Under the pieces are notes generated by a model. That model made no database searches and was not told where the DNA came from. It was given only the letters and a program-made list of their open reading frames with translations. Shown here in pieces: positions 1 through 25,878 of a DNA stretch of 46,572 nucleotides; position 1 is the first letter of the stretch, and each line of letters starts with the position of its first letter. Origin of the DNA: Acidobacteriota bacterium (GTDB lineage: Bacteria; Acidobacteriota; Terriglobia; Bryobacterales; Bryobacteraceae). The stretch covers positions 1 to 46,572 of the forward strand of contig JAPKYX010000271.1 of the NCBI GenBank assembly GCA_026394075.1. The letters are read 5' to 3'. The position numbers were made by a program, and so were the translations under genes.

Positions 1-69
1 CTATACTGTCCCGGCATCAGCATGTAGCCGCTGGCTAGGGCTGGTCGGAAATCCCCGCTTTGATACACT
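1..69 (+). CRISPR. End of a type II-C CRISPR array: terminal repeat with adjoining spacer sequence
   Basis: A 36-base repeat unit is read at 34-69, beginning GCTAGGGC and ending GATACACT. Its limits come from complementarity to the anti-repeat at 4448-4485, because only one copy is visible. Bases 1-33 would be the last spacer, or part of it. No second repeat follows before cas2, so this is the array end nearest cas2, and the leader and other spacers lie left of the window. The orientation (repeat sense on the plus strand) follows from the 5' end of the repeat pairing with the 3' end of the anti-repeat, as in known type II systems. The exact repeat ends could shift by a base or two, and terminal repeats are often degenerate. 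Confidence 0.8.
61..69 (+). promoter_or_regulatory. Extended -10 promoter motif inside the CRISPR repeat
   Basis: The repeat ends in TG-A-TACACT, an extended -10 pattern (TGn followed by a 4/6 match to TATAAT). In Neisseria meningitidis II-C arrays each repeat ends in a comparable TGnTACAAT box that drives transcription of individual crRNAs from inside the spacers. The closely similar TGATACAAT sits just upstream of two genes in this window (4612-4620 and 30129-30137), which suggests the local sigma factor uses it. Promoter activity is inferred. Confidence 0.45.
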
Positions 70-72
70 TAC

Positions 73-110
73 CTCCCCCGTAACCCACTCAGGCTGGGGG
101 AGTTTTCTTT
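73..110 (+). terminator. Rho-independent terminator downstream of the CRISPR array
   Basis: CTCCCCC (73-79) pairs with GGGGGAG (96-102), followed directly by TTTTCTTT. The T-run is on the plus strand only, so the hairpin terminates plus-strand transcription. It fits the end of the array transcript, just before the convergent cas2 stop codon. Confidence 0.65.
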
Positions 111-121
111 GCGCCACGCCC

Positions 122-451
122 TTAAAACAAGCTGATCTGCATGGGCGGCTCTTCCGCCGCACGCCGCTTCCGTCCAAAGAAGACATCCATCTTGCCAAAC
201 TGATGGTCCGTCACCGCCAGCAGTCTCACCTGGCCGTGCGGCGGAAGAGCCGCCCGAACTTGCGCTCTCAAACTGTCGCCCGCCTCCTCGCTGGGCAGGT
301 GCTTGGCGTAAACCGAATACTGCAACATCGTAAACCCCGCCCCCAGCAACTTCTTGCGGAACTGCGCATACTCCCGGCGGTGCTCCTTGGTCTCCACCGG
401 CAAATCGAACATGGCAAACAGCCACATCACGCGGTACCCCGAAAGTGGCAT
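122..451 (-). CDS. cas2: CRISPR-associated endoribonuclease/integration factor Cas2
   Basis: This 109-residue protein has the Cas2 ferredoxin-like start, with the beta-1 motif WLFAMFDLP and the conserved Asp at residue 16. The length is normal for Cas2. With Cas1 it forms the spacer-integration complex that inserts new spacers at the leader end of the array. It is the last gene of the cas9-cas1-cas2 operon, 17 bases after the cas1 stop codon. The stop codon faces the array terminator at 73-110. The order cas9-cas1-cas2 with no csn2 or cas4 defines subtype II-C. Identification is firm from motif and context. Confidence 0.95.
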   Translation of the reverse strand: MPLSGYRVMWLFAMFDLPVETKEHRREYAQFRKKLLGAGFTMLQYSVYAKHLPSEEAGDSLRAQVRAALPPHGQVRLLAVTDHQFGKMDVFFGRKRRAAEEPPMQISLF

Positions 452-468
452 TCAAGCGACTTCCCTCT

Positions 469-1362
469 TCAATCCAAAAACTCCCACGCCCCCGGCTTCC
501 ACCCCGGATCGGCCGCCATCACCGCTGCCGCCAGCCCCTGCGCCGTCCGGGTGAACAAATCGAACAGCGTCCGCTGCTCGCCCTCCATCCGGTAACGCGC
601 CGTCACCGCACCGATCAGTGCGCGCTTCACGGCGGGCGTCAATTCCGACTCCGGTGTGTCCAGTTGCGCCACCACCCGGTCCACCATGGGGCGGAACGGC
701 TCCATCAGGTCATCGGCCAGTACAAACGGGTTCAACCTGTTGCGGTGGTGCAGCCCGAACGACGGATGCAACCCGCTGGCGCACAACGCCCGCGCCGCCG
801 CGGCGCGCAGGATGGCGTAGCCGTAGTTCAGGCGCGCATTGCGCGGGTCGGATTCTTCACCGCGCCGGAACTCACTATCGCCAAAGATCAGCATCCAGTA
901 GCGCCGGGCCGCCTGTGCCTCCACATTCTGCGGATCTCCACTGGCCACCCGGCGCGCCATGCCGGCCAAGCCGTAATCCAGGCCGCGCAACCGCTCCAGC
1001 GTCATCGCCTGCGCGTTGATCTTGGCCCGCACAATCGCCTGCCACCACCGCTTCTTGCGTGGCTCCGGCAGCGCCGCCTGCCGCGCAAACCGCTCCCCTT
1101 GCGCATAGTGCCCGGCCAGCGGCAGCAGCATGGAGGCTGGATGGTGCTTCTCATCACAAGTGATCAGCGTCGCCCCCGCTTCGGCCAGCCCGGTTAGCAC
1201 CGATTGCGTAAACACCACCTGCCGGTTGGAGACCACCACCGCCGCCAAGTCCGCAAAGGGAATCGCCTCCCGCTCCACCCCCTCGACATCCACCACCAGC
1301 AGCCCATGCCGGGTATGGAGGGAAGCGGCGGTGGCGGTGATGTCAAGGATGCGGTCAGTCAT
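469..1362 (-). CDS. cas1: CRISPR-associated integrase Cas1 (type II)
   Basis: A 297-residue Cas1, the metal-dependent integrase of spacer acquisition. The N-terminal beta domain covers roughly residues 1-75. The helical catalytic domain carries the family signature: Glu148 in NVEAQAARRYW, the histidine of GLHHRNRLNPF (about 205-206), and the acidic LADDLMEPFRP segment (about 216-225). All the metal-binding positions are present, so the enzyme should be active. The ATG start overlaps the end of cas9 by 8 bases, showing translational coupling. The sequence belongs to the Cas1 branch typical of type II systems. Confidence 0.96.
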   Translation of the reverse strand: MTDRILDITATAASLHTRHGLLVVDVEGVEREAIPFADLAAVVVSNRQVVFTQSVLTGLAEAGATLITCDEKHHPASMLLPLAGHYAQGERFARQAALPEPRKKRWWQAIVRAKINAQAMTLERLRGLDYGLAGMARRVASGDPQNVEAQAARRYWMLIFGDSEFRRGEESDPRNARLNYGYAILRAAAARALCASGLHPSFGLHHRNRLNPFVLADDLMEPFRPMVDRVVAQLDTPESELTPAVKRALIGAVTARYRMEGEQRTLFDLFTRTAQGLAAAVMAADPGWKPGAWEFLD

Positions 1363-4300
1363 GTGCTTCTCGAATGTCGCCGAGTGCGGTCACTCGGACT
1401 TTCTGACCTCCGGTAGAGCAGACCGTGTGGACATTATTCGTCATCAGATCGATCCCCGGCTTAAGCTCCCGCTTCATGCGCGCATCACTCGCCTCGCTCA
1501 TCGTCAGCCGCCCACCACTCTGATCTGCTATTCCTCTCACCCTCCACAACTTGCCTTTCCAAACCACCATATCCGCCTCACTCAGCGTGAATAGAAACTC
1601 CGTATCCGGCCCATGCTCTTTCCTGACCACAGGCTCCCCCGCTGCATGCCGCCGCGTCGCTTCCAGGCGTGAAACCACATGGCCGACATAGGCCGTCTTT
1701 CCCTTCTTCTGCACGGCCACCACTTCCATGTGATGGTTGTCACCCGGGATCACATTGCGCTGCCGGGGCCCCTGGCCAATCACGCGCGTTTGCGCCACCA
1801 GCCGGATACGGACCCGCTTAATGGGGATGCGGCGCCCGTCGGCCGTCTCCAGCGTCGCCGGCTCCCGCTCCAGTTTCTTCATGTCGCCACCCAGCAGGCC
1901 CACCTGTAGCCGCACCCGCTCCCGGATGGTGGGGTCGACAATTTGTTCAATATCCTTCTCCTTCAGCAGATGGACCGGCTTCCGGATGTGCACCCAGTTC
2001 TTGCCCGCCGCATCCTGCTTGGGCCGCCCATAAAGCGTCTCCTCATGCAGCGCTCCCGAAAGCTTTCGCTCCGGCTTGTGCGAAACCGTCGTCGAATCCA
2101 GAATCGCCACTCGCAACTGCTCCCCAAATCCCGGCCACGGCTCTTCAAACGACTTCACCCGCCTCTGCCCCGCCGCCTCTGCCTGGCCCGCTGCCGTCGC
2201 CAGCAACTGGATCATCCGCCGTGACGCCACCGCCACCGTCGCCGCATCCACCGCATGATGCCGGTGGTCCTCACGGCTTTTGCCCGGCGCATCCACATTC
2301 AAGATCCGGTCCAGACCCCACATCCGCCGCAACATCGCCGTCACGCCACCCGCACAGGCAAACACTCTCTGCGTGCCCGTCACATCCACGGTTCCGCCAT
2401 ACAACAAGCCCAGATACTTACCCGCCAGCTTCGACATGTACCGCGTATCGTTCAACTGGTTGGACGAAAACTGCTCCAACAGCTCCGCCGTCTCCGTCTC
2501 CCGCATCTCAAACCGTTTCAACTTGTTCTTGTTGCCAAACTTCTTCACCCGCGCGACCATCGGCTCCCATTCTTCCGGGTTGCCGCCAAACGCCTCCCAC
2601 GGCGTCCGGTTGTGCTTGCGGTGGTTGTACTCCCGCAAACACAGGGTCTTGTTCTGGAACGAATCATCCAGTGATCGCGAGTGCGGAATGATGTGCTCAA
2701 TGTCAAACTGCGGCTCCTGGTAAAGCGCATGCAGGCTGATCGGCCGGCCGGAATACGGGCACATCCGCGCACACTCTTCCCACAAGATGTACTTCTCAAT
2801 GTCGCGCCGGGAGGGCTGCGTTAATCCGAAGGTCAATAGCTCCGCCCGCGCCTTCTCCCGCTTCTTCTCGTTCTCCCGGTTCTGGTCGGTCAGCGCCTGC
2901 CGGTCCTTCTTGTTGCGCTTCAAGTCGCGGGCGAGCTCGATTTGAATGGTGCCCGGCTTGCCGTAGCGCCGCACCAGCTCATTGACGGCTTTCCGCAATT
3001 CAGTCAGCGTCCGCGTCACGGCTGGATTTCGCAACTCGGGCAGGGCATCCAGCACGGGTGGCAACCGGTCCTGAGGCTCCGCCGCGGCAAAGCTTTCCGG
3101 AAAGACCTCCTTGCGCGCCTGGCCCGTCGTCAGCCCCTCCTCCAGCTTGGGTAACAACTGCCGGATCGCCGCCAGCGAGAACCCGCCGTAGTCATCCGGC
3201 AGCCGGACCGTCAACAGCCCGGCAATCTCCTCCGGCGAATACGCCCCGGTCTCCTCAAGCCGCGCCTGAAAGCTCTCATCATCCGGTGCCGCCGCCCACA
3301 GAGCCACCAGCGCATCCTGTTCGCCCCGCACCATCTGGTCCCACCGCAAGTTCAACGCCTCCGCAAACCGGGCATTCGTCACATTGCCGAGAATCTTCTT
3401 TTCCCCACCCGCCTCAATCGAGAATTTGGCACTCTTGGGTAGCCCCAGCAACTCCCGCACCTTGGCATAGGTCAAGCTCTCCTGAATAGATAGCGCCGCC
3501 ACCAGCTTCTGCCGTTCCTCAGGCGTCAAATACCGCTCGGAGTCCGCCAACCGCAGATTGTTCACCTTGTCCAGCAACCGGAACCGCTGGAAGTCCAAGT
3601 GATAGAGCGGTGCCCGCTTCTCTGTCGGGATCAGCGTGCAGGCCCCAATCAGGTGGCTCTGGTCCTTCAAGGGCCGCTGGTGGAAGATCGCCTGCTTCAG
3701 CTCCGCCCGAAACTCCGGTGTCAGCGTCTGGGGGTGGTGCGGAGCTTGCGCCGCGCAGATCGCATCAAACTCGGTGAGATACATCTTCCGGTCCGTGTAA
3801 CGGGTCCGGATGCGAGAATCATGCGGGTCCACTTGGCTGAAGTACTCACCCAACGTCCGCGCCCCCGCCGCGCGCATGGCACTGCTTAATGACTCGATGC
3901 CGAACTTCACCTTGCCCGCATCCTCGTCATCCTTCACGGGCGCCCGGCGGTTGGACAGAAATCCCCGTCGTTGCGCCAAGTGGTACAGTGCCCGGCCCAG
4001 CTCATAGGGTGCCAAGGCGGTATCGAGCGCTTTGGCCCGCAACGTGTACGGTACTCCAGGATGAGGTGGGTAACTTCGTGAAAGGTCCCGATCCAGCGCT
4101 TTTAAGGCGAGATGCGGATCACCCGGGGGCAAGAGTCCGGCACCCTGGAGGAGATAAAAGATCTTTCTTCCGCGCCGCGCCCGCCGCTCAGTTTGCCGCC
4201 GCGCCAGTCGATTCTTCCGCCGATCAGCATTGCGCGACGTCTCTTTCCCAACTTCAAACGCGCTTTCTCCGCCCTCAACCCCCGCTGGGAACACTCTCAC

Positions 4301-4402
4301 GGCGGTGTTTACAAGTTGGCGCCCCTCGGGGTCGATTAACGCCAGACCCACCGAACGGACACCGAGGTCAATTCCCAGCACGTAGTTTGTGATCTCAGGC
4401 AT
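1355..4402 (-). CDS. cas9: Type II-C CRISPR RNA-guided endonuclease Cas9
   Basis: Cas9 cuts DNA guided by a crRNA:tracrRNA duplex. This 1015-residue protein is at the compact end of the family. In order: RuvC-I with Asp12 in VLGIDLG; an Arg-rich bridge helix at about 53-85; a recognition lobe to about 460; RuvC-II with Glu489 in IQIELARD; the HNH domain with His570 in FDIEHIIPHS and Asn584; RuvC-III with HHAVDA (His715, His716, Asp719); then a roughly 290-residue C-terminal PAM-interacting and wedge region. All catalytic residues are intact. The ATG at 4402 is chosen over an in-frame GTG at 4417, because the latter overlaps the tracrRNA -35 box and adds only five residues. There is no strong ribosome site. 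PAM preference cannot be read from sequence. Confidence 0.97.
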   Translation of the reverse strand: MPEITNYVLGIDLGVRSVGLALIDPEGRQLVNTAVRVFPAGVEGGESAFEVGKETSRNADRRKNRLARRQTERRARRGRKIFYLLQGAGLLPPGDPHLALKALDRDLSRSYPPHPGVPYTLRAKALDTALAPYELGRALYHLAQRRGFLSNRRAPVKDDEDAGKVKFGIESLSSAMRAAGARTLGEYFSQVDPHDSRIRTRYTDRKMYLTEFDAICAAQAPHHPQTLTPEFRAELKQAIFHQRPLKDQSHLIGACTLIPTEKRAPLYHLDFQRFRLLDKVNNLRLADSERYLTPEERQKLVAALSIQESLTYAKVRELLGLPKSAKFSIEAGGEKKILGNVTNARFAEALNLRWDQMVRGEQDALVALWAAAPDDESFQARLEETGAYSPEEIAGLLTVRLPDDYGGFSLAAIRQLLPKLEEGLTTGQARKEVFPESFAAAEPQDRLPPVLDALPELRNPAVTRTLTELRKAVNELVRRYGKPGTIQIELARDLKRNKKDRQALTDQNRENEKKREKARAELLTFGLTQPSRRDIEKYILWEECARMCPYSGRPISLHALYQEPQFDIEHIIPHSRSLDDSFQNKTLCLREYNHRKHNRTPWEAFGGNPEEWEPMVARVKKFGNKNKLKRFEMRETETAELLEQFSSNQLNDTRYMSKLAGKYLGLLYGGTVDVTGTQRVFACAGGVTAMLRRMWGLDRILNVDAPGKSREDHRHHAVDAATVAVASRRMIQLLATAAGQAEAAGQRRVKSFEEPWPGFGEQLRVAILDSTTVSHKPERKLSGALHEETLYGRPKQDAAGKNWVHIRKPVHLLKEKDIEQIVDPTIRERVRLQVGLLGGDMKKLEREPATLETADGRRIPIKRVRIRLVAQTRVIGQGPRQRNVIPGDNHHMEVVAVQKKGKTAYVGHVVSRLEATRRHAAGEPVVRKEHGPDTEFLFTLSEADMVVWKGKLWRVRGIADQSGGRLTMSEASDARMKRELKPGIDLMTNNVHTVCSTGGQKVRVTALGDIREAHD

Positions 4403-4411
4403 AAGAAATTC

Positions 4412-4441
4412 TTGCACGAGATCGTCACGTTAGCGTATAGT
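4412..4441 (+). promoter_or_regulatory. tracrRNA promoter
   Basis: TTGCAC (4412-4417) is followed after 18 bases by TATAGT (4436-4441), a good sigma-70 type pair. Transcription would start about 7 bases downstream, at 4448-4449, which is where the anti-repeat begins. The -35 box lies in the 5' leader of the divergent cas9 gene. Confidence 0.7.
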
Positions 4442-4447
4442 TTTCGT

Positions 4448-4576
4448 AGTGTATCAAAGCGGTGATTGGCCGGCCGTGTCCTAGTAAGGCACTGAAAGGT
4501 GACTTTCACATGCCGCAAGACCCTACTGATCTCAGTATTCTTGCTGAAGCGCTCCTTTCGGGGCGCTTTTCCTTTT
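4448..4576 (+). ncRNA. tracrRNA of the II-C CRISPR-Cas9 system
   Basis: This RNA pairs with the crRNA repeat and loads Cas9. The anti-repeat (4448-4485) pairs with the repeat at 34-69 in three blocks: 19 of 20 bases at the repeat 3' half, 6 bases in the middle and 8 at the repeat 5' end, separated by two small 1x2 internal loops (33 of 36 repeat bases, counting G-U pairs). Next comes TAAGGC, then a hairpin with GGCA (4488-4491) closing on TGCC (4511-4514), enclosing TGAAAG/CTTTCA (4493-4508). GCAAGACCC follows. This closely parallels the TAAGGC...GCCGCAA core of the Neisseria II-C tracrRNA. A small ACTG/CAGT hairpin (4525-4536) precedes the terminator. The predicted length is about 125-130 nt; ends are not measured. 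Confidence 0.88.
4546..4576 (+). terminator. Rho-independent terminator of the tracrRNA
   Basis: AAGCGCTCC (4547-4555) pairs with GGGGCGCTT (4560-4568) across a 4-base TTTC loop, with one G-U pair. The T-rich tail TTTTCCTTTT follows. In this RNA class the terminator hairpin usually remains as the last stem of the tracrRNA. Confidence 0.85.
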
Positions 4577-4611
4577 GGTGCCGCCCCAGTACTCCGCCCG
4601 CCCGCCAGGAT

Positions 4612-4620
4612 TGATACAAT
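4612..4620 (+). promoter_or_regulatory. Extended -10 box of the Gfo/Idh/MocA gene
   Basis: TGATACAAT reads as an extended -10 (TGn plus TACAAT) 18 bases before the start codon at 4639. No clear -35 is seen. The same nonamer recurs at 30129-30137. Confidence 0.4.
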
Positions 4621-4638
4621 CAGTTCGGTTTTCACCGT

Positions 4639-5967
4639 ATGAACCTCAATCCTGGCTCTCCTTCCCGCCGCCGCTTCGTGCAGGCGTCTGCTGCTTTGGC
4701 CACTGCGGCGCGTCCCATTTTGGGCGCTAATGATCGCGTCGGCGTTGCTGTCACCGGCCTGGGTGGCCGTGGCAACAACCACATGGACTACTACCTGAAC
4801 ATCCCTGGCGCCCAGATTGTGGCGCTGTGCGATGTCAATCAGGCCGCGCTGGAACGGGGCCAGACCAAAGTGGCCAAAGGCGGCGCCAACCCCACGCCCA
4901 AGGGCTACGGCGACATGCGCAAGCTGTTTGAGGATAAGGAAGTCCAGGCCGTCAGCTTTGCCACGCCCAACCACTGGCACGCGCTCGGCTCCATCTGGGC
5001 CATGCAGGCCGGCAAGGATGTTTACTGCGAAAAGCCCGCCAGCCACAACATGTTTGAGGGTTACCAGATGGTGGCCGCGGCGCGTAAGTATGGCCGCATG
5101 GTGCAGATTGGTTCACAGTCGCGTTCCACACCGCACAAGATGAAGGCGATGCAGTTACTGCGTGAAGGCGTTATCGGTAAGGTCTATATGGCCAAAGGCC
5201 TCTGCTTTAAGCGCCGTAAGTCGATCGGACACAAGGCGGATGAGCCGACGCCGCCGGGCGTGAACTGGGATCTGTTCCTGGGCCCCGCCCCGATGCGCGC
5301 TTACAATGAGCTCCGCTTCCGCTATAACTGGCACTGGTTCTGGGATACCGGCAATGGCGACATCGGCAACCAGGGCGTGCACGAAATGGACATCGTCATG
5401 TGGGGCTTGGGCAAAACCACGCTGCCCAAGTCCATCGTCTCCACCGGCGGCAAGCTGGCTTACGAGGACGATCAGGAAACGCCCAACACCCAAATGGCCA
5501 CCTTTGATTGGGGCGACGGCGTCCAGGCTCAGTTTGAGGTCCGCGGACTTCTCACCAATGGTGAAGCGGGCATGACCCACGCGGGCGACCCCAACTGCAT
5601 CGGCGACGTTTTCTACGGCTCTGATGGCTGGATGGCCGTCGATCACCGCGGCTTCCAGGTCTACAAGGGCGAGAAGAGCGAGAAGGTGATGGACGAACCC
5701 GTCCAGCGCACTCCCTGGGACACCGTGCCGCACATGCAAAACTTCATCGACGGCGTGAAGTCGCGCAAGACGGAAGACCTGCACGCCGAAATCGAGATCG
5801 GTGCCCGCGCCGCCGCCATGTGCCATCTGGCCAACATGGCCTACCGCCTGGGCCGCAAGCTCAACTTCGACGACAAGACCCGGAAGTTCATCAACGACGC
5901 CGAAGCGAACAAAGCGATGACCCGGAATCCTTACCGCGCCCCCTATGTGGTGCCGGAAAAGGTCTAA
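4639..5967 (+). CDS. Tat-exported Gfo/Idh/MocA family oxidoreductase
   Basis: A 442-residue NAD(P)-dependent dehydrogenase-like protein of the Gfo/Idh/MocA family, members of which oxidise or reduce sugars and polyols. Residues 10-25 form a twin-arginine signal (SRRRFVQASAALA), so the protein is probably exported folded with its cofactor. The Rossmann dinucleotide motif is VGVAVTGLGGRGN (34-46). The family EKP motif is at 131-133, and the acid/base region NQGVHEMD lies near residue 250. Exported members are very common in Acidobacteriota and Planctomycetota. It stands alone, facing away from cas9 with the tracrRNA between them. The substrate is unknown; the family assignment is certain. Confidence 0.92.
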   Translation: MNLNPGSPSRRRFVQASAALATAARPILGANDRVGVAVTGLGGRGNNHMDYYLNIPGAQIVALCDVNQAALERGQTKVAKGGANPTPKGYGDMRKLFEDKEVQAVSFATPNHWHALGSIWAMQAGKDVYCEKPASHNMFEGYQMVAAARKYGRMVQIGSQSRSTPHKMKAMQLLREGVIGKVYMAKGLCFKRRKSIGHKADEPTPPGVNWDLFLGPAPMRAYNELRFRYNWHWFWDTGNGDIGNQGVHEMDIVMWGLGKTTLPKSIVSTGGKLAYEDDQETPNTQMATFDWGDGVQAQFEVRGLLTNGEAGMTHAGDPNCIGDVFYGSDGWMAVDHRGFQVYKGEKSEKVMDEPVQRTPWDTVPHMQNFIDGVKSRKTEDLHAEIEIGARAAAMCHLANMAYRLGRKLNFDDKTRKFINDAEANKAMTRNPYRAPYVVPEKV

Positions 5968-25590: not shown

Positions 25591-25878
25591 CTAGAACAAT
25601 CCTTTGCCCTCGTTGCCCAGACGCTTGTTGACCGCCGCTACGCCAACCACGGCCGCGCCGGCTACCGCCGCAATGACGATCCACTTCGTCTTGCCGCTGC
25701 CCTTCTTCATTGTCTTTTGCGACTTCTGAGCCGTTGCCGGCTGATCCGATGGCGCTTGCCACTTGAACGTTTCCGACCGAACCGGCACCGGATCGGGAGC
25801 CGGGGCAGGCGTGGGCAACTGCTGAGCGAACATCGCGGAGGCCAGCCAAAGGGCCAGCGCAGATTTAAAGAGTTTCAT
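25591..25878 (-). CDS. Small exported membrane-anchored protein of unknown function
   Basis: A 95-residue protein with a signal peptide (ending AMFAQQ) and a Pro-rich stretch (PTPAPAPDPVPV). A lysine-rich linker (KSQKTMKKGSGKTK) leads into one transmembrane segment (WIVIAAVAGAAVVGVAAV, about 66-83) and a short tail. Its composition is that of a real small exported protein rather than a chance frame. It has no recognisable domain. It is monocistronic, convergent with the DUF4256 gene. Confidence 0.6.
   Translation of the reverse strand: MKLFKSALALWLASAMFAQQLPTPAPAPDPVPVRSETFKWQAPSDQPATAQKSQKTMKKGSGKTKWIVIAAVAGAAVVGVAAVNKRLGNEGKGLF

Follow-up and report, generated by a model that had tools for sequence, protein, structure and literature searches.

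The window, by which we mean the whole stretch of 46,572 nucleotides analysed here, carries at 4448 to about 4573 of the plus strand what we hold, with a probability of about 95%, to be the tracrRNA gene of a type II-C CRISPR-Cas9 system (Table 1). A sequence-only reading of the same DNA had described a complete tracrRNA beside Cas9, and this description is borne out by the match of a covariance model from which the window was held out, by the duplex with the repeat and by the 3' hairpins. As the gene order, the -10-like repeat ends and the mutated first repeat fit published biology, we consider the system a new member of the known type II-C, with a tracrRNA tail specific to its clade.

Table 1. 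Features of the CRISPR-Cas9 locus in the window
Feature	Position	Strand	Basis
Last spacer, 31 bases if the preceding repeat ends, as we infer, at 2	3..33	+	Sequence; sister spacers of 29-31 bases
Last CRISPR repeat, ending in the extended -10-like TGATACACT	34..69	+	Equals three repeats on contig C193
Terminator-like hairpin CTCCCCC...GGGGGAG and T tract	73..107	+	Sequence; fold of -17.2 kcal/mol
cas2	122..451	-	TIGR01573, 59 bits (cut-off 24.5)
cas1, type II	469..1362	-	TIGR03639, 260 bits (cut-off 120)
cas9, 1015 aa from ATG 4402 (GTG 4417 possible), stop included	1355..4402	-	TIGR01865, 666 bits
Sigma70-like promoter: TTGCAC 4412-4417, 18 bases, TATAGT 4436-4441	4412..4441	+	Sequence; box scoring at 22 loci
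Predicted tracrRNA gene	4448..4573	+	End-to-end match of a model built without the window sequence, 78 bits, E 7.5e-17
Anti-repeat, pairing along the whole CRISPR repeat	4448..4485	+	Duplex fold; changes with the repeat over 14 loci
Nexus stem-loop GGCA...TGCC	4488..4514	+	RNA fold; conserved AGTAAG-type junction preceding it
Middle hairpin GCAAGA...TCTTGC	4515..4544	+	RNA fold; both-side changes in relatives
Intrinsic terminator hairpin 4546-4569 and T-rich tail	4546..4576	+	RNA fold; model match ends at 4573

The window is contig C163 of a genome of 5.77 Mb in 302 contigs (96.9% complete; G000). The host is a member of the Bryobacteraceae, a family of Acidobacteriota, and the acidobacterial origin named earlier is supported. 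The cas9, cas1 and cas2 genes had been called intact, and indeed all three frames are open and score above their family cut-offs. Cas9 shows HNH_4 and RuvC_III domains over cut-off, and its nuclease motifs, RuvC-I (GIDLG), HNH (IEHIIP...DDSFQNK) and RuvC-III (HHAVDA), align to 8ja0_A. The best PDB matches are chains of 8ja0, 6kc8 and 6jdq (1082-1092 residues), which we take to be entries of Neisseria meningitidis Cas9 (NmeCas9). Within the cas2 frame lies a perfect 20-base inverted repeat (143-162 and 236-255), which has no further copy in the genome even when one mismatch is allowed. The locus holds cas9, cas1 and cas2 only, csn2 and cas4 being absent; the two genes past the tracrRNA and the two nearest beyond the far end of the array belong to other families or to none. 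The tracrRNA is adjoined by Gfo/Idh-type and methionine-synthase-type genes. The set of cas9, cas1 and cas2 is the minimal one described for type II-C, in which the array is transcribed opposite to the cas operon (PMC3936727).

The CRISPR array is severed by the left end of the window and is found further at the end of contig C193 (locus L007), which holds five repeats 66 bases apart. The sequence-only reading would have been refuted by array repeats upstream of the window that are unlike the one at 34-69; of these five, three are identical to it and two differ by one substitution each. By eye the ends of the two contigs do not overlap, which makes it probable that the gap hides at least one repeat; about six spacers are visible, two of them at contig edges. 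As to the direction of the array, the hairpin after the last repeat and the strand of the anti-repeat both fit transcription opposite to the cas operon, and judged from these cues the array is probably transcribed toward cas2. This hairpin begins three bases past the last repeat and is convergent with cas2. A strong hairpin (at least 10 pairs in the first arm) follows the last repeat by 0-5 bases in 11 of 14 arrays, namely in the window, L054, L056-L063 and L066, and is absent in L073, L076 and L009; it could serve termination, adaptation or both.

In Campylobacter jejuni an extended -10-like box at the 3' end of the repeats is reported to start each crRNA (PMC3656092), and repeat-borne promoters are described also for C. 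cellulolyticum in a paper that cites N. meningitidis for the same (PMC7038990). All 14 family repeats end in boxes similar to TGATACACT, with the T of the TG kept in half of them (7/14). Type II-C spacers are reported to be acquired at the last repeat, while mutations accumulate in the first, "extra" repeat, where they are expected to disrupt a crRNA that has no use (PMC12080349), and R. anatipestifer likewise inserts its spacers beside cas2 (PMC6008519). The array described here fits this picture: the repeat beside cas2 is the consensus, and the first repeat at the far end (C193:3895) is substituted at position 3, within the segment whose pairing lies next to the nexus. First repeats are substituted also in L058 and L063 and in none of the other arrays, and some repeats inside arrays vary too. 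No protospacer was found for two array stretches among phages or for three spacers among viral contigs, the search beyond the own array covering one sister stretch only, and as the array stretches and spacers tried gave no target, they yield no PAM.

The promoter of the tracrRNA is present as previously described, TTGCAC and TATAGT at a spacing of 18 bases, with a good -10 and a weak -35 box that together score 8 of 12. At each of 22 loci, that of the window among them, we scored the best-matching pair of boxes with a -10 ending 4-9 bases ahead of the anti-repeat; the average was 9.3 of 12 compared to 6.0 for shuffled sequences, the highest mean of any shuffled set being 6.7 (n=500). A score of at least 8 was reached at 21 of the 22 loci, the exception being L071 with 7.

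Downstream of these boxes, and outside the array, the anti-repeat pairs with the repeat of its own locus: RNAduplex predicts 34 pairs between 34-69 and 4448-4485, at -53.3 kcal/mol. The pairing is predicted to be interrupted by a 1x1 loop, a 1x2 loop and a bulge, which comes near to the 33 of 36 bases with two 1x2 loops counted earlier. Across the 46.6 kb, 45-base windows average -21.2 kcal/mol (sd 4.3); among sites that have no relation to the repeat or the anti-repeat, the strongest reaches -40.2 kcal/mol (minus strand, near 25687). Of 2,000 shuffled repeats none pairs more strongly than -33.8 kcal/mol.

Repeat and anti-repeat moreover change together. Over 14 loci the cognate duplexes average -53.4 kcal/mol compared to -34.0 for mismatched combinations, and none of 20,000 permutations was as good as the cognate pairing. 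The permutation treats the loci as independent although they are related, and its count should not be read as a strict probability. For L067 and L074 we used repeats that lie elsewhere in the respective genome, on other contigs. Eleven of the 14 repeats pair best with their cognate anti-repeat; those of L063, L067 and L010 pair better with the anti-repeat of another locus. The window's own duplex ranks first both for its repeat and for its anti-repeat.

Beyond the anti-repeat the RNA is predicted to fold strongly and to close with an intrinsic terminator. The region 4486-4572 folds at -40.2 kcal/mol (z -6.5, none of 200 shuffles as good), whereas the fold of the whole 4448-4572 with the anti-repeat is weaker (z -2.5, 2 of 200 as good). 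The sequence-only reading had proposed a nexus and a terminator here; both fold as proposed, but a conserved third hairpin between them had been missed. Folded singly, 20 of the 22 family RNAs form three simple hairpins, the exceptions being L061 and L010. The outer stem of the middle hairpin has six pairs, of which the two outermost were not counted in alignment A3, as relatives bulge there. The inner four are paired in 91.7% of its cells, each of them with changes on both sides.

Over the whole structure the covariation score was 0.265 compared to 0.180 for shuffled alignments (0 of 500 as good), in a test whose structure is that of the window's own fold and whose terminator columns slip. 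The number of further pair types was not in excess of that of the shuffles (28 compared to 27.4; 239 of 500), and a control slid by -1 scored 0.243, nearly as high as the true register. Given the lack of an excess of pair types and the high score of the slid control, covariation backs the structure in a way that is supportive rather than decisive. RNAalifold on a MAFFT alignment gave 11 pairs only, as nexus lengths differ too much for sequence alignment, and since the nexus varies, a scan with the fixed motif AAGGC...GCCGCA skipped most relatives.

Cas9 matches were found in 21 of 237 family genomes, the window's own counted, four of which hold fragments only; a genome of the same genus (G070) encodes a Cas9 94% identical to that of the window, which is matched by two planctomycete records as well. 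Twenty-four cas9 stretches were listed (the fragment L076 lies outside these), 22 of which include the region upstream of cas9, and all 22 carry there a tracrRNA-type RNA. These 22 RNAs were delimited by eye before model building, and to avoid circularity the covariance model was built from 20 relatives, the window and its sister species excluded. In the 5.77-Mb genome the model matched exactly the element (Table 1); its six other matches were array repeats at no more than 22.1 bits (E up to 1; 150 of 1,207 candidates scored), and no second such element outside the array was among them.

These results bear also on another kind of RNA. scaRNAs, which likewise combine a repeat-like segment with a promoter and a terminator of their own, have been predicted next to type II loci on signals of this sort (PMC6199352), and the element could in principle be such an RNA, or another regulatory RNA, and not a tracrRNA. 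We regard this as scarcely credible. With the array read toward cas2, which the post-repeat hairpin suggests, the element is the complement of the crRNA; junction, nexus and terminator recur in the stretches of 22 of 22 relatives; and outside the array the model found no other element of this kind in the genome, within the scope just given.

Across the family the model matched 23 of the 237 genomes. Twenty of these belong to the 21 Cas9 carriers, and the remaining three have no Cas9. Most of these matches are the model's own training sequences: 18 of the genomes were training sources, two (the window's and the sister's) were held out and three are new. The unmatched Cas9 carrier, G180, has only 69 bases past the extrapolated cas9 start. 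In a phylum sample of 396 genomes there were eight matches at E up to 1e-4, the own included; cas9 lies alongside in five of five examined of the other seven, and the two weakest scored 37 and 33.9 bits. No Rfam family reached its gathering score over the whole window, and at E up to 1 positions 1-4700 matched only a microRNA model (E 0.2), away from the tracrRNA. A DNA search with the tracrRNA in 150 family genomes gave strong E-values only for the own and the sister genome, next to array repeats and many weak rows that we treated as chance.

The three RNAs without Cas9, L105 (G076:C183:16689-16802), L106 (G086:C86:223-336) and L107 (G085:C202:10352-10470), score 67-87 bits with the model. 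No Cas9 match was found on the stretches fetched around them, nor any over the family cut-off in G076, G085 or G086; relics or repurposed RNAs are the reading we suggest. By eye the neighbours of L107 resemble HTH and ThiF-type proteins. L071 (G041:C14) is a decaying locus, in which a well kept tracrRNA (84.5 bits) adjoins a cas9 fragment that covers query residues 6-290 and contains two stop codons. L068 (G143:C1:2190000-2204000) has Cas9 and tracrRNA in a single-contig, 100% complete genome, and on its 14-kb stretch no array was seen; the repeat pattern searched had no match at up to two mismatches either.

As RNA copies without Cas9 occur in three relatives and one beside a broken cas9 in G041, the locus in the window might itself be decayed or inactive, its tracrRNA a relic that no longer works with the array. 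This is very unlikely: its cas9, cas1 and cas2 are open and above their cut-offs, its repeats are identical or one base off, and its cognate duplex holds first rank on either side. The working system with an RNA specificity of its own that the sequence-only reading saw here remains a proposal.

Among known type II-C systems, the closest are those of the Neisseria/Pasteurella type (NmeCas9 group). In Pasteurella multocida the tracrRNA also lies upstream of cas9 in divergent orientation and its anti-repeat runs along the whole repeat. The window Cas9 shares about 31% identity with the P. multocida relative across 68% of its length (the comparator has no annotated cas9 under this match). In C. 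jejuni the location and direction of the tracrRNA are described as unlike those in N. meningitidis and P. multocida (PMC3936727). The P. multocida nexus follows right after the AATAAGGC junction and is followed by GTAACGCTCTGC, resembling GCAAGGCTCTGC of the Bryobacteraceae family. The extent of the pairing, formerly held to exceed the usual, turned out to be ordinary: 32 of 36 repeat bases pair in P. multocida, 31 in Pigmentibacter and 33 in Limnohabitans, and 31-35 in the family (n=14). The three distant comparator loci lie on plasmids; a Nitrobacter comparator was dropped because the array was absent from its stretch. What distinguishes the family is the middle hairpin, since P. multocida has two folds past the anti-repeat and so has Limnohabitans, whereas Pigmentibacter has a marginal 3-bp middle fold. 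A nexus, further hairpins and a poly-U end are shared with tracrRNA clusters of a catalogue of Cas9 orthologs, which describes two hairpins past the nexus for the Spy-like clade (PMC7606464). The string "acidobacter" is absent from the main text of that catalogue, and a similar RNA may sit in its supplementary sequences (PMC7606464). In the open-licence full texts searched we found no study of the Cas9 or tracrRNA of this clade.

The anti-repeat may be two-faced, forming part of the tracrRNA on the plus strand and providing on the opposite strand the extended -10 of the repeat, which would fire toward cas9. The complement of its start is TGATACACT, the same box as in the repeats, and is oriented at cas9; the chosen cas9 ATG lies 28-73 bases from it in 22 of 22 loci (other in-frame starts up to 100). 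The bases -12T, -11A and -9A of the box (T3, T5 and A6 of the anti-repeat were tested) are invariant in all 22 loci, and -7T (A1) is kept in 18 and lost in four. In favour of this reading, P. multocida and Limnohabitans, two of the three comparators, have an anti-repeat whose box is broken at the first T; the loss of -7T in four loci and the mediocre -10 sequence TACACT count against it. A two-box search for a cas9 promoter scored 8.2 of 12 compared to 7.7 for shuffled sequences, equal to the top of 100 shuffled set means, and at 8 of the 22 loci its best -10-like box, TTTGAT or a sequence close to it, fell within the anti-repeat, 5 bases in. As pairing with the repeat explains much of the same conservation, we consider a cas9 promoter in the anti-repeat a tentative and rather doubtful proposal. 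If true, cas9 would have a short leader and the starts of tracrRNA and cas9 would lie about 7 bases apart with overlapping polymerase footprints, so that transcription of the two would be mutually exclusive and kept in balance.

Based on these data we propose that the tracrRNA would be read rightward from its sigma70-like promoter, in the short gap upstream of the divergent cas9-cas1-cas2 operon. Each crRNA probably begins a little way into its spacer, from the extended -10-like box at the repeat end, as the cases of C. jejuni and N. meningitidis suggest. Folding and co-variation show that the anti-repeat pairs over the full repeat, and RNase III presumably trims this duplex. Cas9 may hold the paired crRNA and tracrRNA by way of the AGTAAG junction, the nexus and the hairpins that follow, and the guide would bring the HNH and RuvC sites of the enzyme to matching DNA, to be cut next to a PAM.

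With this locus a compact Cas9 from an acidobacterial clade has a defined crRNA:tracrRNA pair, and the covariance model together with the 14 repeat/anti-repeat pairs makes guide design for this clade straightforward. The middle hairpin of the tracrRNA and the possible cas9 promoter in the anti-repeat are small, testable additions to the biology of type II-C systems.
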